Part shown: positions 4,888 through 30,081 of the stretch, in pieces
Position numbering within the stretch: the stretch's first letter is position 1
How the letters are laid out: each line of letters starts with the position of its first letter
Source: a virus
Strand: one strand, 5' to 3'
Length of the DNA stretch: 31,197 nucleotides
Virus record (IMG/VR): IMGVR_UViG_3300019487_000075
Span: 1-31,197 of that record
Program-made: the position numbers and the translations under genes
Notes under the pieces: model-generated
The model's input: the letters and a program-made list of their open reading frames with translations, nothing else
Told to the model about the DNA's origin: nothing
Database searches by the model: none

Positions 4888-5796
4888 TCACCCGAACGAG
4901 CTGTCAACACCGCGCCACGAGCCGTAGCCGGTCGCGAAGCGCTGGTACATCGTGAAGATCGCGTTCTTCGTCCACGGGTCGTCGAAGGAGTCGAAGATCG
5001 GTTGGTCACGCCAGCGGAAGTTCATGTCGTGCACGCCCTTGGCGGCGACGAGGATGATCTGGGTCAAGTTGGTCAGGTAGTGGCAGACCATCCACGAAAG
5101 GTCTTCCTCGATGAGCGCGTTCATCTCGTTGTCGGCAGTGTACGGCTTGCCGCTCGACCCCAACACTTCGCGGGTCGCGATCTTGTTGCCCGGCGTGCAG
5201 ACCGCCATGACGGGGGCGAGCAGGCGCGGATTGTCGCGCTCGTCGGTCATCGTCTCGAAGCGGAGGACGGCGCCCTGGATGTAAGTAGTCGACATGCCGA
5301 TATCGACCGAGGGGCGATTGCGGCGGGTAATGCCGTCGTCGCTGACGTGCGCGCCGAAGAGTGCCTCGCCGGCCGTGAAGCCTACGAAGGCGGCATCGAA
5401 GCCGTTGGTGAAGAGGTTCCAGAACTCGATGTCCTGGCGCTGGCGCGTCGCGCGCCCGCCCTCGGCGACCATCTCTTCGAGCACGCCGTACTGCTCGTCG
5501 CGCCATGCTTCCCACGTGAACTCGATCGCCTTGCCCCACGCGGTGGCGAGGTACTCTTTGGAGCCCCCGATGTCGCCCGTGTCGAGTGCGAAGAGGTCGC
5601 CCTCGGGCTTCGCCGGCATGGTGCCGATGCCGATGGCCTGGAGATCCGTCTCCGGGTTCCAGTCCATGTCGGTCACGTTGGCGACCATCGGGTATTCGAG
5701 GGGCTGTTCCTTGCCCGACTCGTAGTAGATGGTCTTCAACCCCGGCGTGAGGAGGGGAGTGATGACGCCACGAGAGACTGGTCCAGTGATGGGCAT
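4888..5796 (-). CDS. Major capsid protein
   Basis: The 302-residue protein resembles HK97-fold major head proteins of the Mu gpT-like type. Features include an N-terminal arm, WEAWRDEQYGVLEEMVAEGG in the spine-helix region, FNGFDAAFVGF-like text (NLFTNGFDAAFVGFTAG), LFGAHVSDDGITRRNRPS near residues 160-177 (compare LFSTAHP..G..NR.S in the family), and PVMAVCTPGNKIATREVLGS followed by YTADNEMNALIEE. The length fits the family. The ribosome site GGAGG stands 6 nt before the ATG. It follows the decoration-like gene and scaffold-like gene in the usual head-module order. It forms the icosahedral shell; no protease gene is apparent in the window. Confidence 0.9.
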   Translation of the reverse strand: MPITGPVSRGVITPLLTPGLKTIYYESGKEQPLEYPMVANVTDMDWNPETDLQAIGIGTMPAKPEGDLFALDTGDIGGSKEYLATAWGKAIEFTWEAWRDEQYGVLEEMVAEGGRATRQRQDIEFWNLFTNGFDAAFVGFTAGEALFGAHVSDDGITRRNRPSVDIGMSTTYIQGAVLRFETMTDERDNPRLLAPVMAVCTPGNKIATREVLGSSGKPYTADNEMNALIEEDLSWMVCHYLTNLTQIILVAAKGVHDMNFRWRDQPIFDSFDDPWTKNAIFTMYQRFATGYGSWRGVDSSFG

Positions 5797-7883: not shown

Positions 7884-8079
7884 CACGATCCTCCTTGTCG
7901 ATTGAGTTAGCGAGAGCGCGCAGCGCGGCGTTCGCGCCTTGCGCACGAAGAACGTCTTCCCAGCATTCTGCGCCGAGCGCGTCACCCGCGTAGGTGCCGG
8001 CTCGCCACAAAATGTCTTCTCTGAACGATTCCATGAGCGCCTTGTTCTGGCGCAAATTCATGAGCCACGCGTTGTTCAT
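7834..8079 (-). CDS. Small protein after portal (81 aa)
   Basis: This 81-residue protein starts NNAWLMNLRQNKALMESFRE and contains LGAECWEDVLRAQGANAALR. Its ATG overlaps the portal stop as ATGA, and its 3' end overlaps the scaffold-like gene by 50 nt. The composition is helical and mildly charged, with no transmembrane segment. I do not recognise a family. The tight coupling to the portal supports a real gene and suggests a head-assembly accessory role. Confidence 0.65.
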   Translation of the reverse strand: MNNAWLMNLRQNKALMESFREDILWRAGTYAGDALGAECWEDVLRAQGANAALRALANSIDKEDRDAFARAEYDRKAGART

Positions 8080-10001
8080 TGGAGGCCCTCGGGACCATTG
8101 ATGCCAGCGCCTTGCGCGTTGGGCGGCGGCAGACCTTGGGGCGGCGGTCCCATGCCGTTGCCGGCGCCATTCACGCCTGCGCCCTGCGCGAGCATTTGCA
8201 TCAACTGCGCGACCTGTTGCTCTTGCTGGACGTCGGCGCTCGCCCGATTGATCTCCTCCATCGTGAGCACGAAGGCGGCGGGGTCGCGCACTTGATCGAA
8301 CGCGCGAATCGTGCGGTCGACCAACTCGCCGGCCTTGTCGACGATCATGAGCCCGGTCGCCTTCAGTTCGGGCGGCAGCATCGGGTTCGAGATGAGCGTC
8401 ATCAGCTCGATGAGCTGCTTGTAGTATTGGCCCATGAATTGGGCGAGGAGCATGGCGTTCTGCTTGTCGGCGTCGCGGTTGACGGACGCCGACGACGCGG
8501 TCAGCTCAACGAGCACGCCGTCATCGAAGTCGGGGTTGCGCAGCAACTCGATGACGAGCGCGCCGTCCTCGGGGCCGAGCATGCGCACGAGGCGCTGCAT
8601 GACGAGCTGGTCGTCGGCGAGCACGCGCTCTTGGTAGCGGAAGAGGCATTGCTGTACGGCGCGTGCCGTGGCGATGCGCATCTCGTCGAAGGCGGGGGTG
8701 AAGCGTTTGGAGACGTTTTGGATCGCAGAGAGCGCAGTGATGCCGGGCGTGCGCGACCCGAGCGCCGACGACCGCCCCTGCCCCAAGTCGCCGACGCCCG
8801 TGCGGCGCTCGGCGTACTGCATGAGGATGGTCTCGGCTTGGATCGCGGAGGTGTAGACGTCGGCCATCGCGAAGGCTTTAAAGTCATCGGCTGGGTTGGC
8901 GACGAGGATGACCTTGCCGGGCCACATCTCTTCGGTCTCGCTGCCGGTGCCTTCCTTGCGCACGTACACACGCGCGTTCGCGAGCAGCATGTTGAGCACG
9001 CGTTGGTTGTGGATCTCGGTCGCGCTGCGCTCGAACTCGCGAAGCATCTCGACGACGCCGAGCCCGTTGAAGAGGTGCGGGCGCGGTTGGTAGACCATCG
9101 ACTCGAAGGGGCGGCGGCGGTCGTATGGGTCGGGGCGCAGCTTGCAGACGCGGCGCGAGACGCGGTCCATCGCGATGTAGAGGTCTTCGGGGATGCCGTC
9201 GTCGTCGATGTCGAAGGCGATGTAGCCTTCGAGGATCTCAGCGAGGTGGCGAGTTTCGACGCCCGTGCGCGACGTGCGGCCGAGGCGCTCGCGGGTTTGG
9301 CGCACCGACATCGAGGAGGCGAGCGCCTTCACGCCCTCGATGTCCCAGCCTTGCATCTTGGCGAGCACCGACAACTCGGACGGTGTGCGGAACGACCGCA
9401 TACACAACCAACGGGCGTCTTCGAGCCACGCGGGCGCCGACCCCGGTACGATGAAGTTCTCGGGGGCGAGCGCGCGGATGCGTGGGCCGCTCGCGACGAT
9501 CGCACGCCCGGTGAGCGTCTTCCGAATCTGTTCGAGCCACGGGATGTAGTAGACGCCTGTACCGAGTTGGGTGTCGTCGGCGAACGCGTGCATGACGGCG
9601 CGCCGCAGGCCCCACTCGTTCTCGGCGCCGTGGTTGGCAAGCCGTTGGAGGGCCTTGCCGTGCTTGACCCAGCGTTCGTCGACTGCGCGGGCCGTGATCG
9701 TCGGCGAGATTTGGTAGACGAGGTCGACGGCCTCGGCGTAGATGGCGTCGGCCGCGATGGCGCCGACGGGCACTTCGATGTTGGGCGCGTTCGGGATGGG
9801 CGTGTTGCGGGCTTGGTGCTCGGGCACGCCGTCGTACATGCGGAGGCAGTCGCGCCAGTTGGCCTCGATTTGGAAGCGGGAGGCGAGCGCCTCCTCGACC
9901 TCGTAGAAGAAGTAGTCGGCGACGTCGGTGACTTGCTGGTCGCTGTAGCGCCGTGCCGGTGTTGGCGGAGGGACGGCGAAGGTGTTGGCGCGTTCGGCCA
10001 T
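8076..10001 (-). CDS. Portal protein
   Basis: The 641-residue length and layout fit a P22/T7-like portal. The N-terminal part has SRFQIEANWRDCLRMYDG and a Pro-rich PIPNAPNIEVPVG stretch typical of the clip-to-wing entry. The wing region carries LAPENFIVPGSAPAWLEDAR and the stem/crown carries long helices such as FERSATEIHNQRVLNMLLAN. The C-terminal part is Gln-, Gly- and Pro-rich (QQEQQVAQLMQMLAQGAG). Twelve copies would form the DNA entry ring that docks the terminase. Its start shares a base with the upstream stop (TAATG). Many podovirus and siphovirus portals diverge strongly, so subtype is uncertain. Confidence 0.88.
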   Translation of the reverse strand: MAERANTFAVPPPTPARRYSDQQVTDVADYFFYEVEEALASRFQIEANWRDCLRMYDGVPEHQARNTPIPNAPNIEVPVGAIAADAIYAEAVDLVYQISPTITARAVDERWVKHGKALQRLANHGAENEWGLRRAVMHAFADDTQLGTGVYYIPWLEQIRKTLTGRAIVASGPRIRALAPENFIVPGSAPAWLEDARWLCMRSFRTPSELSVLAKMQGWDIEGVKALASSMSVRQTRERLGRTSRTGVETRHLAEILEGYIAFDIDDDGIPEDLYIAMDRVSRRVCKLRPDPYDRRRPFESMVYQPRPHLFNGLGVVEMLREFERSATEIHNQRVLNMLLANARVYVRKEGTGSETEEMWPGKVILVANPADDFKAFAMADVYTSAIQAETILMQYAERRTGVGDLGQGRSSALGSRTPGITALSAIQNVSKRFTPAFDEMRIATARAVQQCLFRYQERVLADDQLVMQRLVRMLGPEDGALVIELLRNPDFDDGVLVELTASSASVNRDADKQNAMLLAQFMGQYYKQLIELMTLISNPMLPPELKATGLMIVDKAGELVDRTIRAFDQVRDPAAFVLTMEEINRASADVQQEQQVAQLMQMLAQGAGVNGAGNGMGPPPQGLPPPNAQGAGINGPEGLQ

Positions 10002-16149: not shown

Positions 16150-16818
16150 TCAATGTTGTCGTGGAGGGATCGGGGGGACGCCGCCCGCGCGCAGCTGCAT
16201 GCGGCGCTTGGCGAGTTCACCCTCGATCTGCGTCGGCGGCATGCCGCTGCGACGCAGGTAGACGGCGAGCCCCGAGAGGTCGTCGGCGAGCGCGTCTTCG
16301 CGTGGTTGCTTGCGAAGGAGGCCGGCGGCGGACGCGATCGAGTCGACGATGTCGAAGGTGGGCGACATGGGGTGGGACTTCAACTCGTCGCGCGCCTCGA
16401 TTTGCGAGACGTCGTCGAGCATGAAGAAGCGGGAGTCGTTGATGATGGGTTGGAGGGCGGCGCGGTTCCGAAACGGTTTCTCGACGTTGGTCGGCTGCAG
16501 GACGTCGACCAGCGGGATGCGGTCGGCGCGAAAGCGCGCCTCGCGGCGCACGCTGTCGGCGAAGAGCGTCTGCATCGCGTTGGCCTCGATGCCGAAGAGG
16601 CGAGGGCGCCACGCCTCGTTGAGCGCGAAAATCATGTCGACGAAGCGGTCGGTCGTCGTACGCTGCGCCCACGCGTGGAGCAGGAAGACGTGGTCGTTGG
16701 GGCCGCCCCCGAGCACGACGATCGCGCTCCGCGCTTGTACGCGTTTCACCACGTTCTTGCCGCCGGCCGGATCGGCGAAGGCGACGATGTCGAGGATCGC
16801 GAGGTCGTGAGCGGGCAT
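16150..16818 (-). CDS. Large terminase, nuclease domain encoded as a separate gene
   Basis: The 222-residue protein matches the RNase H-like nuclease half of large terminases. VAFADPAGGKN (Asp16) begins the first strand, ARSAIVVLGGGPNDHVFLLH the second and third, RPRLFGIEANAMQTLF carries the second acid (Glu78), PTNVEKPFRNRAALQPIIND follows, and FDIVDSIASAA (Asp156/Asp159) gives the last acid. The ATPase half is absent from this gene and is encoded upstream at 17249-18526. A ribosome-site-like GAGGTG lies 2 nt before the ATG, so it is translated on its own. It cuts concatemeric DNA during packaging; the two chains presumably assemble together. An HNH gene lies between the halves. Confidence 0.82.
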   Translation of the reverse strand: MPAHDLAILDIVAFADPAGGKNVVKRVQARSAIVVLGGGPNDHVFLLHAWAQRTTTDRFVDMIFALNEAWRPRLFGIEANAMQTLFADSVRREARFRADRIPLVDVLQPTNVEKPFRNRAALQPIINDSRFFMLDDVSQIEARDELKSHPMSPTFDIVDSIASAAGLLRKQPREDALADDLSGLAVYLRRSGMPPTQIEGELAKRRMQLRAGGVPPIPPRQH

Positions 16819-16840
16819 CTCACCTCAGCTGGCGCGGATG

Positions 16841-17247
16841 GGCGCCCAGCGCGCGCGTCATCAGAAGGGCGCCTCCTCGTAGTACATCTGCCGCGCCGCC
16901 GTCAGTGCGTGGTGACAGTCGGTGCAGAGGAGCTGACAACGCGTCAACTCGTCGAAGAGGCGGTCCCACGTGCAGGTCATCACCTTGGTCACAGAGACGA
17001 GTTTGACGCCGGTATTGTGATCGAACTCGAAGTCGCGTTGGTCGGCGCCGCCAGCGTCGCCACACAGTTCACATCGTCCGCCCATCCAGAGGACGCACAT
17101 GCGCTTGCGCGCTGCGTAGCGAGCGCGACGCGAGGCCGCCTGGCACGCGCGGTGACGCGCACGGTCGCGGTAGGGCATCACACCCCAGCCTCCACTGTTT
17201 GGCGCCCAGCGCGCACAACCGGCGGCAGTGATAGGCGCCCAGCGCGC
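16841..17247. repeat. Three direct copies of GGCGCCCAGCGCGC flanking the HNH gene
   Basis: The 14-mer GGCGCCCAGCGCGC occurs at 16841-16854, 17201-17214 and 17234-17247. One copy lies just beyond the HNH stop and two just before its start; the third ends right beside the stop codon of the terminase ATPase gene. The copies border the inserted gene rather than lying inside it. Confidence 0.6.
16861..17178 (-). CDS. HNH endonuclease inserted between terminase halves (105 aa)
   Basis: The 105-residue basic protein has the layout of a small phage HNH nuclease. It has an Arg-rich N-terminus (RDRARHRACQAASRRARYAA), CELCG (first zinc pair), EFDHNTG (the DH of the HNH motif), and LLCTDCHHAL (second zinc pair and final His). 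These form a beta-beta-alpha-metal active site that nicks or cuts DNA. I use ATG 17178; an adjacent GTG at 17181 is possible. Free-standing HNH genes beside terminase genes are common and may aid packaging or act as homing endonucleases. Here it lies exactly between the ATPase and nuclease parts of the terminase, flanked by 14-bp repeats, which favours a homing origin. Confidence 0.85.
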   Translation of the reverse strand: MPYRDRARHRACQAASRRARYAARKRMCVLWMGGRCELCGDAGGADQRDFEFDHNTGVKLVSVTKVMTCTWDRLFDELTRCQLLCTDCHHALTAARQMYYEEAPF

Positions 17248-17248
17248 G

Positions 17249-18526
17249 TCACTCGAACCTCACGTGGCGCCCGCGCCGCAGGTACTCGGTGCGCGCCCGA
17301 AAGACGTCGTAGCGGCCGGTCTTGCCGGTGGGCTCACGGCCCTCGGCGCGGGCGGCGGCAGCGGCCTCAAGGCCCTCGCGCAGTTGGGCGGCGAGCTGGC
17401 GACGCTCGATCGCGAGCGCGTCGTGCTCGTTCTCGTCGTAGCAGACCTTGCCGTCGCTCATCCAGAAGCGGCGCACCTTGTCCATGTTGAAGTCGGTGAG
17501 GGTCGGGTCAGTTGCGCTGTTCATATAAAGGAGGGGGAACATCGAGCCGAGTTCGCGTTGGAGGCGATTGACGGTGTCGATCGAGAAGCGTTCTGGGAAG
17601 ATGGGCTCGCCGCCCTCGACGACGCGGCGCACGATCGGCTCGACGGTCGGATCGTTGCGGATGATGTACTCGTAAAGGTCGGCGACGGCCCACCGCGTGC
17701 CGACGGTGTATTCAAGGGTGCGGTCGGGGTCGTCCATAAGCGCGCGCGAGGCGCGCCACCACTCGATCGCCGTCTGCATCGTGGTCGGCGAGTTCGCGTC
17801 GTTGATGTCGACGAGGTCGTCGAAGATGTGCATGTTGAAGTGGTAGCCGGTGATCTGGCCGCCGACGCCGATCGTCTCGATCGTGGCTTCCTTGTAGTGG
17901 TCCTGGCGGGGGAAGACGATGCGCTCTTGGTTCCACCAGCGCGCTTGCTTGCGGGGGTCGTCCCACATGGCCGAGGGCCAGAGCGCCTTCAGAAGTTGAT
18001 TTTCTTCGGCGGCGACCATGATCTCGCTCAGCGTCGAGCGCGCGAGATCGGCGCCGCGCGACGCGAAGAGGATGCGCGTCGAGGTGCCTCGGGCGTGCGT
18101 GAGCGCGCCGATGCCTTGCGGGAAGTAGACATTTTCGAAGGTACCGTCAGTGCGAGGGGTGCCAGGTTGAATGACGGCGTGGAGCGCCTGGGTCTTCAGG
18201 ATCGTCGTCTTCAGGTGGCCGCGTGGCAGGAGGAGAAGTCGGCGCCACGGTGGGGGCGCCTGCATCGCGTTGCAGAGGGGCAAGTGCAGCGTGGGCGTGA
18301 GAAGATCGTAGCCCATGATGATCTTGCCGAAGAGGTACTGCGAGCGCTCGCAGCGCGTGCGCAGTTCGTTGACGAAGGCGCCCTCGGCGTCGGCGCCGGT
18401 CTGGCGCACGCGCCCGTGCTTGTCGACAACGAACTCAGCCGCGCCGCTGAGTTTCGTCCACTCGCGTAGCGAGTTCGGTTCGGAGTTGCTCGATGGATTT
18501 GGCAGAAATGGGCGGGCGTCCGTCAT
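17249..18526 (-). CDS. Large terminase, ATPase domain encoded as a separate gene
   Basis: The 425-residue protein holds the packaging motor ATPase. LLLLPRGHLKTT (Walker A variant, residues about 97-108), an adenine-binding region upstream, NMHIFDDLVD (Walker B, Asp236/Asp237), and TVGTRW (coupling motif) are in the expected order. The chain ends soon after a charged linker (RAEYLRRGRHV-like text) where a complete terminase would enter the nuclease domain. That domain is encoded separately downstream at 16150-16818. The start overlaps the small terminase gene by 92 nt. It powers DNA translocation into the prohead through the portal. The split appears to separate complete domains rather than break a fold. 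Confidence 0.88.
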   Translation of the reverse strand: MTDARPFLPNPSSNSEPNSLREWTKLSGAAEFVVDKHGRVRQTGADAEGAFVNELRTRCERSQYLFGKIIMGYDLLTPTLHLPLCNAMQAPPPWRRLLLLPRGHLKTTILKTQALHAVIQPGTPRTDGTFENVYFPQGIGALTHARGTSTRILFASRGADLARSTLSEIMVAAEENQLLKALWPSAMWDDPRKQARWWNQERIVFPRQDHYKEATIETIGVGGQITGYHFNMHIFDDLVDINDANSPTTMQTAIEWWRASRALMDDPDRTLEYTVGTRWAVADLYEYIIRNDPTVEPIVRRVVEGGEPIFPERFSIDTVNRLQRELGSMFPLLYMNSATDPTLTDFNMDKVRRFWMSDGKVCYDENEHDALAIERRQLAAQLREGLEAAAAARAEGREPTGKTGRYDVFRARTEYLRRGRHVRFE

Positions 18527-19569: not shown

Positions 19570-19914
19570 GCGAAATCACCCCCTCTCGGCCATCAACAAT
19601 GTGTACACACGTAGATCATTGCTAGACGCAAACGTCAAGGGGGCGCGCTCAGCGCGGGCGCCAGCGCCGGACATATTCGCGGGGCGCGCTCGGGTTTTGT
19701 CCGGGAAAAAAAATTTGCTGTGCGCGGCCTCGCACGGCTTCACCCCGTCTTCGGGGCCGGCCTGGGGGGCACTCCCCCTCGCCGTTGCCGGCAACGCGCA
19801 ACGCGAGCGCGGTGAGGCGGCGAGCGCACGGCGGGCGGCACGTGTGTGCTATGCTGTTAAGCGAGATAGCAGACAGCTAGGCAATGTCGCCTAACTGAGA
19901 TGGAGGAGAGACAG
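19570..19914. promoter_or_regulatory. Divergent control region between late and 52-residue genes
   Basis: This 345-nt gap separates leftward and rightward genes. A candidate leftward -35 is TTGACG (19638-19633, minus), with a poor -10 near 19615-19610. The word CAATGTGTACAC (19597-19608) nearly repeats one at the 23.4 kb promoter. Also present are a perfect 14-bp palindrome CGTTGCCGGCAACG (19783-19796), a run of eight A at about 19696-19703, and an inverted pair TGCTAT / ATAGCA (19847-19852 and 19866-19871) just before the rightward gene. No convincing gene is present on either strand. Confidence 0.4.
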
Positions 19915-20073
19915 ATGAGCAGATTAGAAGAGGCTGAACGAGCACATCAGCGAGCGCTTACGCGATTGCGGCAGATAGTCAAAGCGCTACGAGAGCCTAG
20001 TACTCGCGGGATGCGTGACCAATTGCTCATCGAAGCTGACGACATGCTCGACGAACTGGGCGAAGACAGCTAG
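19915..20073 (+). CDS. 52-residue helical protein
   Basis: The frame starts at ATG 19915 with GGAGGAGAG about 5 nt upstream and encodes a charged helical protein: MSRLEEAERAHQRALTRLRQ, continuing to EADDMLDELGEDS. It has no membrane segment. The protein could form a helical hairpin with a central RGMRD turn. It is the only rightward gene between the late operon and the leftward cluster. Its stop codon lies in the first copy of a 13-bp tandem repeat. The good ribosome site is the main support. Possible small regulator; unknown. Confidence 0.6.
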   Translation: MSRLEEAERAHQRALTRLRQIVKALREPSTRGMRDQLLIEADDMLDELGEDS

Positions 20074-20090: not shown

Positions 20091-20158
20091 CTCAGCGTGA
20101 ACTTGCCCTCACGGCCCTCCCCGCGTTCGCCGCTCGGAGGGGTCGAGAGACCAGAAAA

Positions 20159-20187
20159 GCCCGCCTCGCGTTCTCTCCGAGGCGGGC
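20159..20187 (-). terminator. Intrinsic terminator for the leftward small-gene cluster
   Basis: GCCCGCCTCG (20159-20168) and CGAGGCGGGC (20178-20187) form a perfect 10-bp stem with a 9-nt loop. Read on the minus strand the stem is followed directly by TTTTC, giving a good Rho-independent terminator for genes coming from 22.2 kb. It protects the late control region from read-through. On the plus strand it may also act weakly. Confidence 0.7.
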
Positions 20188-20199
20188 CGTCTGTGTGGT

Positions 20200-21718: not shown

Positions 21719-22234
21719 TTACTCTCCGAACGCATCGCGCAGTGAACGCAATATGTCGTCGAGCTTATAGCGTTCTACCGCCTCGCGTGCGGTGAGAGGC
21801 GTGAGAGTGGCCTGGAAGCTACTCCATTCTCCCTGCCAGTGTGACCACGTTCCCTCACGCGTGGCAACGCTAAGCGATCCGTCCAGCATAAGGACGAGTC
21901 GATCACCGCAAAACGTACCGCGGTTGCCTGTTTCATCGCTGTCATTATAATACTTATTAACAAGAATCAGTCCTGGACTGTCGAAATAGTCGCGCACTTT
22001 CTGCGGGTTGCAACCATTTTGGCCGCCCGTCGAGGCGTAATATTGCAAGAGCTTACTGGTCACTGCGCGCAGCGCTGGCTTGGTGAGAGCAATTGCGCGC
22101 TCGAGCACAGCTGCCTCGGCGTCTCGCTCAGCAGCGATTGCGGCCTGTGACGCGTCGTATTCCGCAGCAGCTTTTTGAGCCCGCTCGGCGATCTGGTCGA
22201 GCTGGGTGTTCGTGTCGCTGGCTTTCTTGTCCAT
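21719..22234 (-). CDS. Unknown soluble protein heading the leftward cluster (171 aa)
   Basis: This 171-residue protein starts MDKKASDTNTQLDQIAERAQ with a coiled-coil N-terminal half (KAAAEYDASQAAIAAERDAE). The C-terminal half is a compact domain containing YYASTGGQNGCNPQKVRDYF, then LVLMLDGSLSVATREGTWSH and SLRDAFGE. GGAGAGGG lies about 9 nt before the ATG. It is the first gene of the leftward cluster, reading away from the mirrored control region, and its DNA is visibly richer in AT than the structural genes. No catalytic motif is recognised. Confidence 0.65.
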   Translation of the reverse strand: MDKKASDTNTQLDQIAERAQKAAAEYDASQAAIAAERDAEAAVLERAIALTKPALRAVTSKLLQYYASTGGQNGCNPQKVRDYFDSPGLILVNKYYNDSDETGNRGTFCGDRLVLMLDGSLSVATREGTWSHWQGEWSSFQATLTPLTAREAVERYKLDDILRSLRDAFGE

Positions 22235-22459
22235 CGTCTTGTCCCTCTCCTGCGATTGTTGGCGACTGGATTGCCGCCGGATCTATCTGTCTGGTTTTAC
22301 CTCCACCTACACTCTATCAGACTTGTCCTCGCCGAGATCACCGCCTTAGAGCACCGGACGCGCCCAGCTTAGCTCCTTGCCGAGCCCCCGACGACCCCTC
22401 GCCCCGCCCCCTGGCATTGTGCAAATACGCGTAAATACGCGAAATCGTTGGCCTCGCTC
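22235..22459. repeat. Leader of leftward cluster with iteron-like direct repeat
   Basis: This stretch holds no convincing gene. At 22423-22431 and 22433-22441 AAATACGCG occurs twice, separated by one base, like a pair of iterons or operator half-sites. An AGCTTAGCT word at about 22366 belongs to the GCTAA-box family. The remainder is the probable 5' leader of the 171-residue gene. Confidence 0.4.
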
Positions 22460-22815
22460 AATACCATCATGTAAAGGGAAAGTGAGTTCCTAGAGACGGT
22501 CGCCGTCGCAAGTATGCGGGATTAGCGAGCGTTTCCAGTACCTCAAGCGCCAAATCGAACAAAAGTAATTACTGCCTTAGCGCCCGCGCGGGGTACGGAC
22601 AATGAACGAGAGGAGGGCTGATCCCTCCCCCCCTAGCCCACCCCTTTTTTTTACTTAACATATCCTAATACCCATGTCGCTTACCCCCCGCCTGCGCGCC
22701 GGCAGTAATTACTATTTTGCGATTGAGTGAAAAATGCCTGGAACTGCGAGGAAAGTCGTTGACTTATGGCGAGGAGCCACGCTAGTAACTCGATTTCCCT
22801 TAATATGATGGTATT
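22460..22815. promoter_or_regulatory. Mirrored (inverted) control module, divergent promoter/possible origin
   Basis: Two arms are inverted copies. The outer ends 22460-22481 and 22794-22815 match at 20 of 22 bases. GAGTTCCTAG and GAGTTACTAG follow inward, then CTAG-N16-AAGT with identical spacing in both arms. AGTAATTACTGCC at 22564-22576 and its exact inverse at 22701-22713 come next, and GC-rich similarity reaches about 22600 and 22677. Arm lengths to the inner box are nearly equal (117 and 115 nt). The right arm contains TTGACT (22759-22764) and, 18 nt on, TAGTAA (22783-22788) facing the rightward genes. The centre holds a small GGAGGG/CCCTCC hairpin (22612-22628) and an AT-rich T-run. 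Bidirectional early promoter, operators or an origin are possible. Confidence 0.6.
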
Positions 22816-22836
22816 CAATGTAGAAAAGGAGGTCAC

Positions 22837-23385
22837 ATGGTCGAGCGCCGAGTGTTCAAGAGGTTAGGGTGGACAAAGGACGATGACGGCTACTCGCACG
22901 TCATCATACAGGTTGCCGACACGGGGACGATCCGCGTCATCTGCGGTCAACGCGACACACCACTCGACGAGGTGTACGACGAGCCGACAACCGAGCCATG
23001 TCCGATCTGTGAGACGACCAAGAAGGTACGCTTCGCCTACACGCCGAGTGGGCGCCGCAAGCGGATGCGAAAGTGGTACTACAGAGGGCAAACGCAGCGT
23101 GTCGCTGTCGTCGACATCGAGCGCCTCAAGTTGGTGCCGAAGTACGGCGTCGTCGGTTGGACGATCCCGCACTCGATGTCGGGCGGGCGCTACGGCCTGT
23201 ATCACATCGTCCTCGAATACGACGGCCACCGATGGGTGCGCTGCGATCGAGGACGCGCGACGAGCACCGACGAGGTAAGCGCGTACATCCCACCCATCGA
23301 GCGTCAATGCAAGCGGTGCCGCAGGCCGTGGCGGCGCTACGAGATGGTCTCAACCAAGCGGGACGTGGCCAAAGAAGGGTCTTGA
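22837..23385 (+). CDS. Unknown protein with zinc-ribbon-like Cys pairs, first early gene (182 aa)
   Basis: The 182-residue protein starts MVERRVFKRLGWTKDDDGYS after a near-perfect AAGGAGGT ribosome site. It has two cysteine pairs, CPICETTKK (residues about 54-62) and CKRCRRPW (about 159-166), which may form a metal site. Between them lie a basic stretch (GRRKRMRKWYYRGQTQR) and a beta-rich part (GLYHIVLEYDGHRWVRCDRG). It is the first rightward gene after the mirrored control module and so is probably made early. Its family is not recognised; nucleic-acid binding is plausible. Confidence 0.7.
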   Translation: MVERRVFKRLGWTKDDDGYSHVIIQVADTGTIRVICGQRDTPLDEVYDEPTTEPCPICETTKKVRFAYTPSGRRKRMRKWYYRGQTQRVAVVDIERLKLVPKYGVVGWTIPHSMSGGRYGLYHIVLEYDGHRWVRCDRGRATSTDEVSAYIPPIERQCKRCRRPWRRYEMVSTKRDVAKEGS

Positions 23386-23410
23386 CAATAGCGTGCGCAA
23401 TGTGTACGCT
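23382..23410 (+). promoter_or_regulatory. Sigma70-type promoter for the small-gene operon
   Basis: TTGACA (23382-23387) is a consensus -35, followed after 17 nt by TACGCT (23405-23410) as -10. The start codon at 23435 lies 24 nt further on, with GAGGAGGAGA between. It overlaps the end of the upstream gene. CAATGTGTACGC (23398-23409), straddling the -10, nearly repeats a word in the 19.6 kb control region. Confidence 0.65.
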
Positions 23411-23434: not shown

Positions 23435-23614
23435 ATGGACCCGAACGAAGCGTTGACGCAGTGCCGCGAGGCCGCCAAGGTCATAGTCGATCAGGAAGAC
23501 GACTACGGAGCCGCCGAGGAACTTGCGGAACACTTCCACGCCCTCGACGCTTGGCTTGTGCGCGGCGGCTTCCTGCCCGCCGACTGGCAGACCGCCAAGA
23601 GGGAAGGCCGATGA
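23435..23614 (+). CDS. Small acidic protein (59 aa)
   Basis: The start at 23435 is supported by GAGGAGGAGA and the promoter just upstream; a longer in-frame ATG at 23393 lies inside the promoter. The 59-residue product MDPNEALTQCREAAKVIVDQ, then a stretch with EELAEHFHALDAWLVRGG, is helical and acidic and resembles small phage early proteins of unknown function. It is coupled to the next gene by ATGA. Confidence 0.65.
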   Translation: MDPNEALTQCREAAKVIVDQEDDYGAAEELAEHFHALDAWLVRGGFLPADWQTAKREGR

Positions 23615-24415: not shown

Positions 24416-24609
24416 CGGCGTGGGCGCGCGCTGTGCGCGACCTGCGCACCGCCATGCGCCTCTCGCTCACCGGCTTTGCGCAGCTCGTCGGCGTGGTCCC
24501 GCAGACCGTCTATCGGTGGGAGCACGGCGAGGCTGTCCCGCGATTGAGCGCGCAACGCCGCCTCGACGACTTGACGGGGCGGATGCGACGCGACGCGAAG
24601 GTCGGATGA
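24376..24609 (+). CDS. XRE-family helix-turn-helix regulator (77 aa)
   Basis: The 77-residue protein contains a lambda-repressor-like HTH: LRTAMRLSLTGFAQLVGVVP followed by QTVYRWEHGEAVPR, i.e. helix, turn, and recognition helix with the VYRWExG signature of XRE/Cro-type regulators. A basic N-terminus (ARRRARRHS) precedes it. I prefer ATG 24376 because GGAGGAG lies 5 nt upstream; GTG 24412 overlapping the previous stop as GTGA is an alternative that would keep the whole HTH. It is coupled by ATGA to another DNA-binding protein. No dimerisation domain follows, so it is Cro-like in size. Confidence 0.78.
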   Translation: MARRRARRHSPSVTAWARAVRDLRTAMRLSLTGFAQLVGVVPQTVYRWEHGEAVPRLSAQRRLDDLTGRMRRDAKVG

Positions 24610-24866
24610 CACGTGAACAGTTGTACTGGTTTCGCTATCGCTTCAAGGTTTTCTTCGGGCGTCGTTTCCCGGACGTGCCTATATGGGTCGACGGAACGAG
24701 GGTCCAGCAACGGCGTTGGATGGCTATTCGCGCATGTGTCGATGGACGTTTGACGCAAGCAAAAGCGGCTCGATTCCTTGGAGTTTCACGAACCACAGTT
24801 CGGAATGCTGTCGTGCGTGAACGCCGCTACCAAGTGTGTCCGACATGGGACGAAGGGTGGTGGTAA
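24606..24866 (+). CDS. HTH DNA-binding protein (86 aa)
   Basis: Starting in ATGA overlap with the XRE gene, the 86-residue protein reads MTREQLYWFRYRFKVFFGRR and has a C-terminal helix-turn-helix (LTQAKAARFLGVSRTTVRNA, residues about 50-69) that resembles resolvase- or Fis-type recognition helices. The N-terminal part is aromatic and basic. Two small HTH proteins in tandem suggest the regulatory switch of the early operon. Codon use drifts toward AT-rich triplets in the downstream half. Confidence 0.65.
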   Translation: MTREQLYWFRYRFKVFFGRRFPDVPIWVDGTRVQQRRWMAIRACVDGRLTQAKAARFLGVSRTTVRNAVVRERRYQVCPTWDEGWW

Positions 24867-25880: not shown

Positions 25881-26080
25881 TGCAAACACTTCAATGCATT
25901 TGTCACGCCTGTACGACACCAATGTCGAGCGGAAGGATGCCACCAGTAGCCGAGTTGATCCTTGGTGGTGACGGGTCGATCTTCTCGCACCATGGATGGG
26001 AGGACAACAGTGTCCATAGCTACATCTTGACCGGCGACGATCTCGAACGGCTCGCGCGATGGGCGAAGGCGGTCCAATGA
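25880..26080 (+). CDS. Unknown small Cys/His protein (66 aa)
   Basis: A 66-residue product in TGATG and ATGA overlaps reads MQTLQCICHACTTPMSSGRM, then GGDGSIFSHHGWEDNSVHSY. The clustered Cys and His (CICHAC, SHHGW) may bind a metal. It is placed directly before the PD-(D/E)XK nuclease and is coupled to it. The role is unknown. Confidence 0.6.
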   Translation: MQTLQCICHACTTPMSSGRMPPVAELILGGDGSIFSHHGWEDNSVHSYILTGDDLERLARWAKAVQ

Positions 26081-27087
26081 TCGTTGATGGCCGCACCTAC
26101 CTCGACAACACGCTCGCGCGCTCCGCGCATGCCTGCTCGCTCCAGATGGTCCTCCGCCACGTCCTCCACTGGAATTCCCGCGACGCGACCAGCTATCTGC
26201 GCGCCGGCACCGCCGCCCACGAGGCGTACGCCTACTGGAACACGCTCATCTGTGAGGGCCACGCCTACGACTCAGCTCGCGAGGGCGCCAACGCCGTCTT
26301 CGCGGGCGCCTACCAGCCGTACAGCAACGAGTGGGTCGGCGCCGACGACCGCATGCACTACGAGAACCTTGCCACGATCCTTGACGAGTGGTTCACGACG
26401 CGCGCCGGCAAGTTGCCGTGGGTCGTGCCAGACAAGCGGCTGATCGAGGTCGGCTTCGCCTATCCCCTCGACGACGCCGGGCGCGTCATCGCCTACGGCC
26501 GGATGGACGAAATTGGGCGTGACCGCCACGACGGCGCCTGGGTGCCCGTCGACCTGAAGACGACCGGCCGCATCGACCAGGCGTGGACCGACCAGTGGAC
26601 GCTCGATCCGCAGATCACGCACTACACGTGGGCGGCGCTCCAGCACGTGCCGCACATGCGCGGGTTCTACATCAACGGCATCGAGTTCTCGCGCCTGCCG
26701 CAGAGCGATCGGAAGTGCCCGACGCACGGGCTCAAGTATCACGAGTGCGGGCGCGCTCATCTGCGCGCCGAGGTCGTCGGCCCCATCGACCGTACGCCCG
26801 CCCTCCTCGACCGCTGGCGCGCCGACGCGCTCCGCGCCGCCGAGAAATACACGTTCTACGCGCGGGCGTACGACCCGGCGAACGTCGGGACGACGCCCGA
26901 CCTCTCGAACGTCGAGTGCGAGGGGCCGTTCGTCGGCGCCTGTCGCTTCTGCACGTTCAAGGACTGGTGCCGGCTCGGCCAGCGCGCCGAGATGCTCCCG
27001 GCGATGTTCGTGCAGGACGAGTGGCACCCGTACGACCCGCGCGCGTTCGAGGGCGCGAGCCCGGCCGACGAGGTGCTCAACCCATGA
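26077..27087 (+). CDS. PD-(D/E)XK nuclease, Cas4/RecB-like, with Fe-S cysteines (336 aa)
   Basis: The 336-residue protein starts in ATGA overlap. AGTAAHEAYAYW gives the RecB-type first motif His. GRMDEIG gives the first acidic metal ligand (Asp144), and VPVDLKTTG carries the catalytic Asp159 and Lys161. Cys20 in SAHACSLQ and three C-terminal cysteines in CRFCTFKDWC (residues 289, 292 and 298) match the one-plus-three arrangement of 4Fe-4S cluster ligands in Cas4 and AddB nucleases. It is likely a DNA exonuclease for recombination or replication, working with the Sak4-like ATPase encoded 2.2 kb downstream. No helicase domain is attached. Confidence 0.85.
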   Translation: MIVDGRTYLDNTLARSAHACSLQMVLRHVLHWNSRDATSYLRAGTAAHEAYAYWNTLICEGHAYDSAREGANAVFAGAYQPYSNEWVGADDRMHYENLATILDEWFTTRAGKLPWVVPDKRLIEVGFAYPLDDAGRVIAYGRMDEIGRDRHDGAWVPVDLKTTGRIDQAWTDQWTLDPQITHYTWAALQHVPHMRGFYINGIEFSRLPQSDRKCPTHGLKYHECGRAHLRAEVVGPIDRTPALLDRWRADALRAAEKYTFYARAYDPANVGTTPDLSNVECEGPFVGACRFCTFKDWCRLGQRAEMLPAMFVQDEWHPYDPRAFEGASPADEVLNP

Positions 27088-27527: not shown

Positions 27528-27803
27528 ATGATCGTACTCGCGACCCTATTCATGCTGGCCATGTGCGGCGACTGCGACGGCGACCAGCGCGTGACCATCG
27601 CCGAGCTGGTGCGCGCCGTTGGCAACGCGCTCGACCCCTGTGGCGAGGACTGCGCGGCCTGCCCCGACACGTGCGTCGAGTTGCCGGTGGCGATGGTCGA
27701 CGGCGTCGAGGTGCACTGCGACGTCGCCCTCTGCGGCGATCCCGAGGCGTGCGTGCGGACGCTCTATGCCGACGGCGACGCTCGGTGCTGGGCGGCGCCA
27801 TGA
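27528..27803 (+). CDS. Exported EF-hand/dockerin-like small protein (91 aa)
   Basis: Starting after AAAGGAGGAGA, the 91-residue protein has a short hydrophobic N-terminus (MIVLATLFMLAMCG) followed at once by DCDGDQRVTIAELVRAV, a calcium-binding loop plus helix resembling the dockerin/EF-hand units of secreted proteins in Binatota and Deltaproteobacteria. The rest is Cys-rich (CGEDCAACPDTC, HCDVALCGDPEAC), suggesting extracytoplasmic disulphides. A LAMC sequence resembles, but does not match well, a lipobox. Its stop overlaps the metalloprotease start as ATGA, so the two are co-made and may interact. Confidence 0.75.
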   Translation: MIVLATLFMLAMCGDCDGDQRVTIAELVRAVGNALDPCGEDCAACPDTCVELPVAMVDGVEVHCDVALCGDPEACVRTLYADGDARCWAAP

Positions 27804-29080
27804 CGCGCTCCAACAGTGTACTCAGCATCCTCCTCGTCTTTCTTGCGCTCGCCCTTGCGATCGTGGTCGGCCTCGGGCTCTTAGCCAACGTCGCGCTCGG
27901 CGCGTTGTCTCCCTCGCCCTTCGCCGACGACGCCACCCTCTCGTGGGAGGACGCCGATGGCGTCATCGACCCCGATCTCAACGGCTATCCGCTCGAATCC
28001 TGGCTCTCCATGTGGCAGCAGCCGGCCCTCGAAGCGACCTTCGCCTGGCACGGCGAGGGCGAGGCCGCCGCCGATCAGGAGGGCGAGTGCGCCGGGATGG
28101 CCGGCGGCGCCGAGGTCGCACCGGCCGCGGGCACCGTCCCCAACTGGACCCGCGTCTACCGCGTGCGCATCGGCATCCAAGTCGAGGCGCTCGACGATTG
28201 GACGTGGCAGACCGGCGGCGCCTTCACCGAGGTGCCGCTCCACGTCCGCGATGCGATGCAGGCCGTGCGCGTCGCCGCCTGGCGCGTCGGGCTCGACATC
28301 CAGGTCGGGCACATTCACATGATGGCGGGCGGCTGGGACGACGACACCGCCGCCGAGCGCACCGCGTCCGCGTGGGGCACCCACGACAAGTGGCTCTCAG
28401 GCGCGCTCACCATGCACCAGCCAGTCGCGCACGTCCTGCGCCTGAGTTCACTCCTGAACGGCGGATGGTCGACCACCGCCGGTCCCTGCGCCCCGCTGAA
28501 CGTCAGCCACAGCCGCTTCCGGTGGAACCTTGGGTCGTCCCGCTATCTGGCTCTGCGCTTGGTCGCTCACGAGCTGTTTCACGCGCTCTTCGCGCTCGCG
28601 CATACGCAGTGCTACCGGATGCCCGAGGATCCGAGCGAGCCGCTCGAACACTGCTACGAGGGCGTTTGCTGGCCGCACGTCGAATCCTTCCCCGGCCACT
28701 GCCCCAGCCAGGAGGCGTATTCCGTGATGGGCTACTGCACGAGCTGCACGAGTCTCTACGAGCCCGTGCTCCGGCTCGGCCCCACGCGCGGCCCGCTCGA
28801 ACGGCGCGCTCGCCTGACCCTCGTGGCCAAGGCCGATACGGGCTGTCTCGGCGAGTCGGTCGCCGAGTGGCCGATCTACGCCAGCGCCGCCGACGCTGAC
28901 GGCGACGAGCAGTGGGATGCCTACGACAACTGTTCTACTGTGCCGAACGCGGACCAGCGCGACAGCGACATGGACGGGCGCGGTGACGCGTGTGACGGCG
29001 GGTGCGCGGTTGCGCCGGGGAGCGCCGCCGCGTGGCCGCTGCTCGTCCCCCTTCTCGTCTTGTGGAGGTCGCATGCCTGA
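27800..29080 (+). CDS. Membrane-anchored metzincin-like metalloprotease with TSP3 repeat and sorting-like tail (426 aa)
   Basis: The ATG at 27800 overlaps the preceding stop as ATGA; the longer frame upstream is a shadow. An N-terminal hydrophobic helix (residues about 5-29) suggests a signal or anchor. HELFHALFALAHT (His257, Glu258, His261, His268) is a zinc-protease signature, and SVMGYC at 308-313 resembles the metzincin Met-turn. The third His is one residue further than in HExxHxxGxxH, an oddity. Residues 365-399 form a TSP3-like calcium repeat (DADGDEQWDAYDNC, then NADQRDSDMDGRGDACD). The end, Cys402 plus a hydrophobic helix and WRSHA, resembles MYXO-CTERM sorting tails. It probably cleaves proteins outside the host cytoplasm. 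Phage cargo of this type is unusual. Confidence 0.78.
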   Translation: MTRSNSVLSILLVFLALALAIVVGLGLLANVALGALSPSPFADDATLSWEDADGVIDPDLNGYPLESWLSMWQQPALEATFAWHGEGEAAADQEGECAGMAGGAEVAPAAGTVPNWTRVYRVRIGIQVEALDDWTWQTGGAFTEVPLHVRDAMQAVRVAAWRVGLDIQVGHIHMMAGGWDDDTAAERTASAWGTHDKWLSGALTMHQPVAHVLRLSSLLNGGWSTTAGPCAPLNVSHSRFRWNLGSSRYLALRLVAHELFHALFALAHTQCYRMPEDPSEPLEHCYEGVCWPHVESFPGHCPSQEAYSVMGYCTSCTSLYEPVLRLGPTRGPLERRARLTLVAKADTGCLGESVAEWPIYASAADADGDEQWDAYDNCSTVPNADQRDSDMDGRGDACDGGCAVAPGSAAAWPLLVPLLVLWRSHA

Positions 29081-29297
29081 CGATGACCACGTCCCGTCGA
29101 CGACGCTCGTGCTCCGCGAGGGTCGCCACGTCGCCGTCGCCACGCACGCGCTAATCGACGCCGAACTCGTGCGGCTCGCTGCCGAGCAACACGCGAAGAT
29201 GGCGACGTCGCCGCCGAAGCACCGGGACTGGCACCGCGACCGCATGCTCGCATTCGAGCACGTGCTCGCCGGCCGAGAGCGGTTTCGCAATGGCTGA
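29073..29297 (+). CDS. Small unknown protein between cargo and Sak4-like gene (74 aa)
   Basis: The 74-residue protein starts at ATG 29073 with GGAGG 6 nt upstream, inside the end of the protease gene, and its stop overlaps the next gene by 8 nt. It reads MPDDDHVPSTTLVLREGRHV, then THALIDAELVRLAAEQHAKM, with an Arg/His-rich helical end. It has no signal. Coupling to the Sak4-like gene suggests it belongs to the recombination block rather than the cargo. Confidence 0.6.
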   Translation: MPDDDHVPSTTLVLREGRHVAVATHALIDAELVRLAAEQHAKMATSPPKHRDWHRDRMLAFEHVLAGRERFRNG

Positions 29298-30081
29298 CCG
29301 TCCAGCCATCCACTGCATCACCTACGGCGATCCCGGCGGCGGCAAGTCGACGTTCGCGACGACGTGGCCGCGCCCGATCCTCGGCTTTATCTTCGACGCG
29401 CACGGCAAGGACACGCCGTACATGCGATGGGCGCGCGCCAACGGCTGTACGGTCACCGACTCCGTCGACTCATGGGGCCTCCCTGTTAAAGAGATCATCA
29501 ACGCGGCCGGCGAGATCGAGATGCGCCTCGAATACTACAACGACATCTCGCCCATGCTCGGCGAGGACCGCGTTGGCTACCCGCACACGTGGGAACTCTT
29601 CGAGTGGCGCATGAGAGAGCGCGCCTTCTTCAACGAGGGGTGGCAGACGGTGCTCGTCGACTCCGTCACCTTCATGGAACTCTGCGCCCGCATGTACGCG
29701 AAGTTCGTCAAGAACCCCGACTCCAAAGAGCCCCGCCAGTGGTTCGGCTACTCGACGGACGCGCTCGAACTTGCCCTCCTCGTCCAGTTACAAGCGTTCA
29801 CCGGCAACCTCCTCGTGCTCGCCCACATCCACCACGACAAGGACGAGGTGTTGCAGACGTTCGTACGCCAGCTCGCGGCGCCCGGCCGGCTCACCGCGCG
29901 CAACGAGCTGGCCGGCGGCTACTCCGAACTCTACCGCGCCTACGTCGTCCGCGAGCGCGGCGGCGAGACACAGTTCGTGTTGCAGACGCAGCGGGACAAC
30001 CTCTTCTCGTGCGCGACACAGATTCACGCGCCGGATCCGTGTTGGCAGGACTGGACGGCGCTGTGGGAGAACTTCACATGA
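29290..30081 (+). CDS. Sak4-like RecA-fold ATPase / single-strand annealing factor (263 aa)
   Basis: The 263-residue protein has YGDPGGGKST (Walker A, Lys19), FIFDAHGKDT after the first strand, TVLVDSVT (Walker B, Asp124) and LLVLAHIHHDKDEV (a sensor-like strand). The C-terminal half carries a beta-rich segment (SELYRAYVVRERGGETQFVL) as in phage AAA/RecA-type ATPases of the Sak4 group. Members promote annealing or loading in phage recombination and often lie near a PD-(D/E)XK nuclease, as here. The start overlaps the previous gene by 8 nt. Alternative: a RecA-like replication accessory. Helicase use cannot be ruled out. Confidence 0.78.
   Translation: MADRPAIHCITYGDPGGGKSTFATTWPRPILGFIFDAHGKDTPYMRWARANGCTVTDSVDSWGLPVKEIINAAGEIEMRLEYYNDISPMLGEDRVGYPHTWELFEWRMRERAFFNEGWQTVLVDSVTFMELCARMYAKFVKNPDSKEPRQWFGYSTDALELALLVQLQAFTGNLLVLAHIHHDKDEVLQTFVRQLAAPGRLTARNELAGGYSELYRAYVVRERGGETQFVLQTQRDNLFSCATQIHAPDPCWQDWTALWENFT

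Follow-up and report, generated by a model that had tools for sequence, protein, structure and literature searches.

A mirror-image element with an AT-rich core in a podovirus-like phage and its relatives: a putative replication origin

Gene surroundings and structure of the mirrored element

The window, that is, the whole stretch of DNA analysed here, is an IMG/VR virus record of 31,197 bp and represents a fragment of an unclassified podovirus-like phage. Its leftward genes encode head and packaging functions, among them the portal (8076-10001), the head protease (4888-5796) and a large terminase that occupies two separate reading frames (17249-18526 and 16150-16818), and its rightward genes include those of a PD-(D/E)XK-type exonuclease (26059-27087) and a Sak4-like protein (29290-30081). 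A mirrored element of about 360 bases was found between two gene clusters transcribed in opposite directions (Table 1). The leftward cluster, from 22.2 to 20.2 kb, is followed by a GC hairpin that by eye resembles a terminator (approximately 20156-20190) and then by a short plus-strand gene (19900-20073), suggesting that this cluster is a transcription unit apart from the late genes. The divergent clusters flank the element in the window, yet the plus-strand gene parts the leftward one from the late genes.

No Pfam or PHROGs match was obtained with the product of either the first leftward or the first rightward gene. The preliminary description had pointed to XRE/HTH proteins at 24.4-24.9 kb; a helix-turn-helix protein is indeed encoded there, although it could not be recognised as XRE, and it is a candidate DNA-binding partner of the element. 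A further early-region product (27800-29080, plus strand) is predicted to be exported; it has an HExxH metalloprotease-like motif, a hydrophobic C-terminus and a thrombospondin type 3 repeat, and it matched the MYXO-CTERM protein MtsC weakly, below the cutoff, which hints that the host may be a myxobacterium.

Table 1. Features of the mirrored element and its surroundings (window positions unless a related locus is named)
Feature	Position	Strand	Description
First leftward gene	21719-22234	-	171 aa; starts 224 nt from the left arm
Tandem 10-mers	22423-22442	+	AAATACGCGT / AAATACGCGA; just outside the left arm; possible iterons, without right-hand counterpart
Left arm	22458-22600	-	143 bp; outward is leftward; 66.7% identity to the right arm over 144 columns
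Outer box, left arm	22460-22493	-	TTTCCCTTTACATGATGGTATT and CTAGGAACTC on the outward strand; 34 bp, 85% identical to 22782-22815
Inner box, left arm	22564-22576	+	AGTAATTACTGCC; contains the palindrome AGTAATTACT; exact inverted copy at 22701-22713
Low-melting core	22644-22675	.	T8 tract and ACTTAACATATCCTAATA; presumed duplex-unwinding element
Right arm	22676-22817	+	142 bp; outward is rightward; aligned to the left arm
Inner box, right arm	22701-22713	-	Reads GGCAGTAATTACT; exact inverted copy of AGTAATTACTGCC
Outer box, right arm	22782-22815	+	CTAGTAACTC and TTTCCCTTAATATGATGGTATT; the rightward gene's start codon follows after about 20 nt
First rightward gene	22837-23385	+	182 aa, two CxxC pairs; ATG with AGGAGG, 20 nt past the right arm
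Helix-turn-helix protein	24420-24866	+	Pfam HTH_29 (2e-6) and HTH_psq; not recognisably XRE
Second inverted repeat, L037	9084-9430		
Second inverted repeat, L034	7807-8179		
Second inverted repeat, L032	581-941		

When the reverse complement of 22458-22600 was aligned globally with 22676-22817, 96 of the 144 columns were identical, the identity peaking in the inner boxes (columns 24-48) and in the outermost boxes (columns 108-144) and being low in the middle. The preliminary description had reported outer 22-mers matching at 20 positions in inverted orientation, an inner 13-mer exact in both arms, a CTAG-N16-AAGT spacing common to both and arms of nearly equal length, and each of these details was recovered from the sequence (the 22-mers at 22460-22481 and 22794-22815). 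Its estimate of about 120-140 bp per arm proved short, the symmetry reaching further inward, to about 22600 and about 22676, and what it had called a T-rich centre is a low-melting core rather than a pure T tract. In a local alignment the arms scored 47, and none of 2000 dinucleotide shuffles was as good (mean 16.7, maximum 28), so that the match did not dissolve under the shuffling that had been named as a way to refute it. The element was also the top mirrored repeat of the whole 31-kb window, with a score of 47.6 as compared with 30.3 for the runner-up and a shuffle maximum of 27.1.

The palindrome AGTAATTACT, with up to one mismatch allowed, was present only in the two inner boxes in 31 kb (expected 0.05), and the outer motif likewise occurred twice in the window, once in each arm. 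A series of T7-like phage promoters was rejected on the latter count, and a structured RNA on the lack of any Rfam match; the single strand of the element folds well (z -7.7), as follows from its mirror symmetry. The AT content of the core (0.84 in the 25 bp at 22646-22670) was the joint highest in the window, the other peak sharing this maximum, at 21944, being inside a gene. The core is also part of the 60-bp segment (22623-22682) in which the pyrimidine content of the window is highest. Iterons inside the arms of the window were weak, each box being present about once per arm. On the minus strand, a G-rich run (GGGGTGGGCTAGGGGGGGAGGG, 22623-22658) adjoins the AT core and could form a G-quadruplex, and a C7-TAG-C7 tract similar to it was seen in the related locus L022 (3898-3914).

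Mirrored repeats in related phages

DNA searches of phage records returned no relative of the element region. The sole match was elsewhere: 64 bp (23524-23587) were 81-83% identical to gene 56 of Roots515 and other Mycobacterium Bixzunavirus phages, whose genomes are otherwise unrelated. Searches with single proteins (first rightward gene, exonuclease and terminase) gave no usable relatives, and two AGTAATTACT palindromes at a spacing of about 130 bp, used as a search key in viral contigs, gave 11 unrelated AT-rich or repeat matches. Relatives were gathered by means of a terminase profile built from a two-sequence alignment. Their terminases were mostly 24-51% identical to that of the window, and one of them, ctLwi270 (MW202554; L007), has a complete circular genome. 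The complete genomes of ctMlz233 and of the cultured Microcystis cyanophage Mel-JY34 (PP438425) are related through the exonuclease only. The relatives encode a family-A DNA polymerase together with exonuclease and Sak4-like proteins. A large terminase split into two genes, one for the ATPase part and one for the nuclease part, was seen across the phage group (window 16150-18526, minus strand; L022-L037, L058-L065, L080 and L081), the two parts being separated by anything from a slight overlap (L026) to more than 1 kb (L022); in the window, the space between them contains an ORF of 105 aa, for which the match to Endonuclease_VII was very weak (E 0.067).

The scan of each locus for mirrored repeats made no use of window motifs, and gene calls in the relatives were approximate. 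About 20 related loci or complete genomes carried one mirrored repeat stronger than anything in their own shuffles, which numbered only 6-8 per locus, and in nearly every relative whose sequence includes the region upstream of the terminase the best mirrored repeat was located there. When the central 50 bp were left out, the mirrored repeat still exceeded the shuffle maximum in the window and in 18 relatives, in the upstream or early region (ctLwi270, L022, L023, L024, L026, L027, L028, L031, L032, L034, L037, L043, L048, L057, L060, L061, L065 and L080). Low-complexity AT DNA could raise mirror scores, but the outcome survives this removal of the centre, the mirror still ranking top, and an artefact of that kind was rejected. 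The strongest mirrored repeat was likewise above the shuffle maximum in ctMlz233, Mel-JY34 and TR020. Scores above 40 were reached in ctLwi270, L032, L060 and L080; a single top repeat was separated from the next by a wide gap in ctLwi270, ctMlz233 and G012 and by a small margin in G004, G001 and G005. No mirrored repeat above the shuffles was found in lambda, T7, c2 or A-4L. Among the relatives, L081 had no such element in 7.6 kb of upstream sequence, the mirrored repeat of L025 was not above its shuffles, and that of L059, in a background of 70% GC, ranked only second.

The sequences of these elements were unrelated to that of the window, indicating that the layout is what is shared: long, imperfect mirror arms stand on either side of a core, and this core is often where the AT content of the locus is highest. 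That the relatives keep this architecture while the sequence changes supports the selection on sites which the preliminary description had proposed. The mirror centres of the relatives consisted of AT-rich DNA or dinucleotide repeats, and in 11 of them (ctLwi270, L022, L023, L026, L032, L034, L037, L060, L080, ctMlz233 and Mel-JY34) the locus-wide or genome-wide AT peak, measured over 40 bp, lay at most about 50 bp from the mirror centre. In L060, each arm contained two copies of CAGAAAAAT and three of TTCTTCCTGAT with a pitch of about 10 bp, facing outward on both sides at similar distances from the centre and rare elsewhere. Mirrored repeats of this type were present in the arms of L080 (AACGAACGTAGC), L032 (AGAAACGGCTT) and L039 (TGTAGAAAACG), iterons being clear in L060, L080, L032 and L037/L039 and weak in the window. 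Judged from this anatomy, the layout of the relatives is that of a putative unwinding core between two opposed arrays of predicted initiator sites. DnaA boxes (TTATCCACA, up to one mismatch) were absent from the window and occurred as single boxes only in L007, L024, L034 and L043; an origin of the DnaA-box type was rejected, since there were no clustered boxes and no consistent signal across loci.

Gene direction, promoters and alternative explanations

In L032, L034, L037 and L039 a conserved leftward gene is placed between the element and the late operon, so that the late-side arm faces the 3'-end of this gene. Both genes flanking the element have the same direction in ctMlz233 and in Mel-JY34, where a single strong mirrored repeat, coinciding with the AT maximum, lies inside a one-directional early gene run. 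The presence of the element inside a one-directional run in these three settings rules out a divergent promoter pair as its general function. In the L032, L034 and L037 subgroup, a second inverted repeat, about 320-370 bp across (Table 1), flanks a conserved small leftward gene beside the origin-like element. The genes beside the element in L025 (5371-5583) and L026 (2742 leftward), on the minus strand, encode products that resemble ribbon-helix-helix proteins by eye and that may be site-binding regulators or initiators.

The preliminary description had offered a bidirectional switch as one of two readings. As a transcription switch only, the element would consist of two mirrored promoter-operator modules, one per operon, obeying a single phage regulator in the style of lambda OL/PL and OR/PR. 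This agrees with its location between divergent operons in the window, L022, L024 and others, with the AT-rich outer boxes, one of which has the first rightward start codon 20 nt beyond its end, with the outward TTGATA-16-TAATCT in one arm of L022 and TTGATA-16-TACTAT in the other, and with the repressor-like appearance of the ribbon-helix-helix neighbours in L025 and L026, the former having a weak YlcI/YnfO match. The lambda sites are also similar control sites facing opposite early operons, but according to the annotation the two operator sets are about 2.3 kb apart around the immunity genes, whereas here there is one compact mirror with an AT core, which is also found away from divergence points in relatives. 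Moreover, no consensus sigma-70-like promoter was found at 22000-23400 of the window, no mirrored -35/-10 pair could be aligned in the window, and in a comparison across 16 loci the best promoters facing outward did not outscore those facing inward. A switch predicts AT peaks in the arms, whereas those of the relatives are at the centre, and it leaves the elements inside one-directional gene runs unexplained; we consider it unlikely as the only function.

A packaging or terminal element (pac/cos or a genome-end site near the terminase genes) would fit the position upstream of those genes and the location at the record ends in the deposited Mel-JY34 and TR020. However, the element is separated from terS/terA by distances that range from less than 1 kb to about 6 kb, and the circular records of ctLwi270 and ctMlz233 place it well away from the record ends, on the early side. 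Sites of the pac/cos or genome-end type are, moreover, not known to be built as an AT core with mirrored iterons, and we consider this explanation very unlikely. Inverted repeats bound by a DNA-binding protein are also known in partition and recombination sites, and the element might be a centromere-like site or a recombination site whose inverted arms flip DNA. We regard this as highly improbable, given that the arms are only 67% identical, that the flanking genes are not alternately oriented, that no invertase or integrase was found beside the element in the window, and that the ParB-annotated protein of ctLwi270 is a fusion of ParB_N with a DNA methylase. A decayed inverted duplication without function, or a chance structure, is scarcely credible; the imperfection of the arms would agree with it, but it is largely refuted by the recurrence of a top mirrored repeat with unrelated sequence in about 20 related loci or genomes, and the arm identity is concentrated in the inner and outer boxes. 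In ctLwi270, the fusion just mentioned (L102, 573-1853) joins a ParB N-terminal domain to an N6/N4 DNA methylase, and the gene next to it carries a DNA polymerase annotation but encodes a fusion of a uracil-DNA glycosylase with a 3'-5' exonuclease domain.

A probable replication origin

The explanation that we favour, and hold to be the probable one, is that the element is a phage replication origin, made up of an AT-rich unwinding core and mirrored initiator-binding arrays, with a right arm that probably also holds the rightward early promoter. The origin was the other reading of the preliminary description, and it is preferred because in most relatives the core is at or near the AT maximum of the locus, in several the arms carry mirrored iterons and in several the element lies inside a one-directional gene run. 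The element is mirrored, unique in the window and AT-rich at its core, and it recurs in relatives, also at points where genes do not diverge; from this anatomy and recurrence we infer origin function, initiator binding, bidirectionality and promoter overlap. The core (22644-22675) would be the unwinding site and the arms would carry the sites for a putative phage initiator; the replication machinery would be loaded on both sides of the core and would depart in both directions. The ribosome-binding site of the first rightward gene is immediately next to the right arm, suggesting that the rightward early promoter is probably contained in the same DNA; as the arm ends 20 nt before the start codon, this promoter must overlap the arm or lie inward of it. 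Binding of the initiator could also regulate early transcription.

The GC-skew analysis that had been suggested was carried out with ctLwi270. The minimum of the cumulative skew (34047) was 1.8 kb from the mirror centre (35885) and the maximum was near the convergence point, a pattern consistent with an origin, although gene direction is a confounding factor. An initiator gene was sought in this phage group and none was identified; the AAA+ protein of L024 was rejected as initiator, as it occurs in that phage only and is not shared by the group.

The origin of Ceduovirus (lactococcal c2/bIL67) is a non-coding region between divergent early and late modules, and Ceduovirus origins vary in sequence between phages while the function is kept, with direct, inverted and palindromic repeats drawn there (PMC7150918). 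The element of the window also lies between divergent clusters, although the leftward one is parted from the late genes, and its layout is kept in relatives while the letters differ; unlike it, c2 has no long mirrored arms above shuffle level, and several of the relatives' elements, unlike the Ceduovirus origin, are away from the divergence point. The c2 phages are, moreover, unrelated siphoviruses, whose origins replicate plasmids without other phage proteins. In the lambda ori, short repeated initiator sites (O iterons) are next to an AT-rich unwinding region (PMC7466680), but there the iterons are direct repeats inside gene O and occupy a single side of the AT tract, whereas the element described here is mirrored. 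In Sulfolobus oriC1, inverted initiator sites (ORB) flank an AT-rich unwinding element, ORB3-DUE-ORB2 spanning about 130 bp (PMC12141716); this is a cellular archaeal origin with Orc1/Cdc6, and the likeness is in layout only. By analogy, the element would combine features of the Ceduovirus, lambda and Sulfolobus origins in a mirrored form, of which we found no description in a limited search of the open-access literature.

It is possible, and we propose it tentatively, that these elements represent a widespread, undescribed class of tailed-phage origin with an AT core and long mirror-image initiator arrays, the architecture of which would be kept across very diverse podovirus-like phages even as the recognition sequences change along with rapidly evolving initiators. 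The replication origins of most uncultured phages are not known. If the proposal is true, a signature independent of sequence, namely the AT maximum combined with the strongest mirrored repeat, would allow origins to be predicted in genomes without sequence homology and would focus the search for initiator proteins. Phages with symmetric initiator arrays would also offer a helpful point of comparison for studies of how helicases are loaded bidirectionally.
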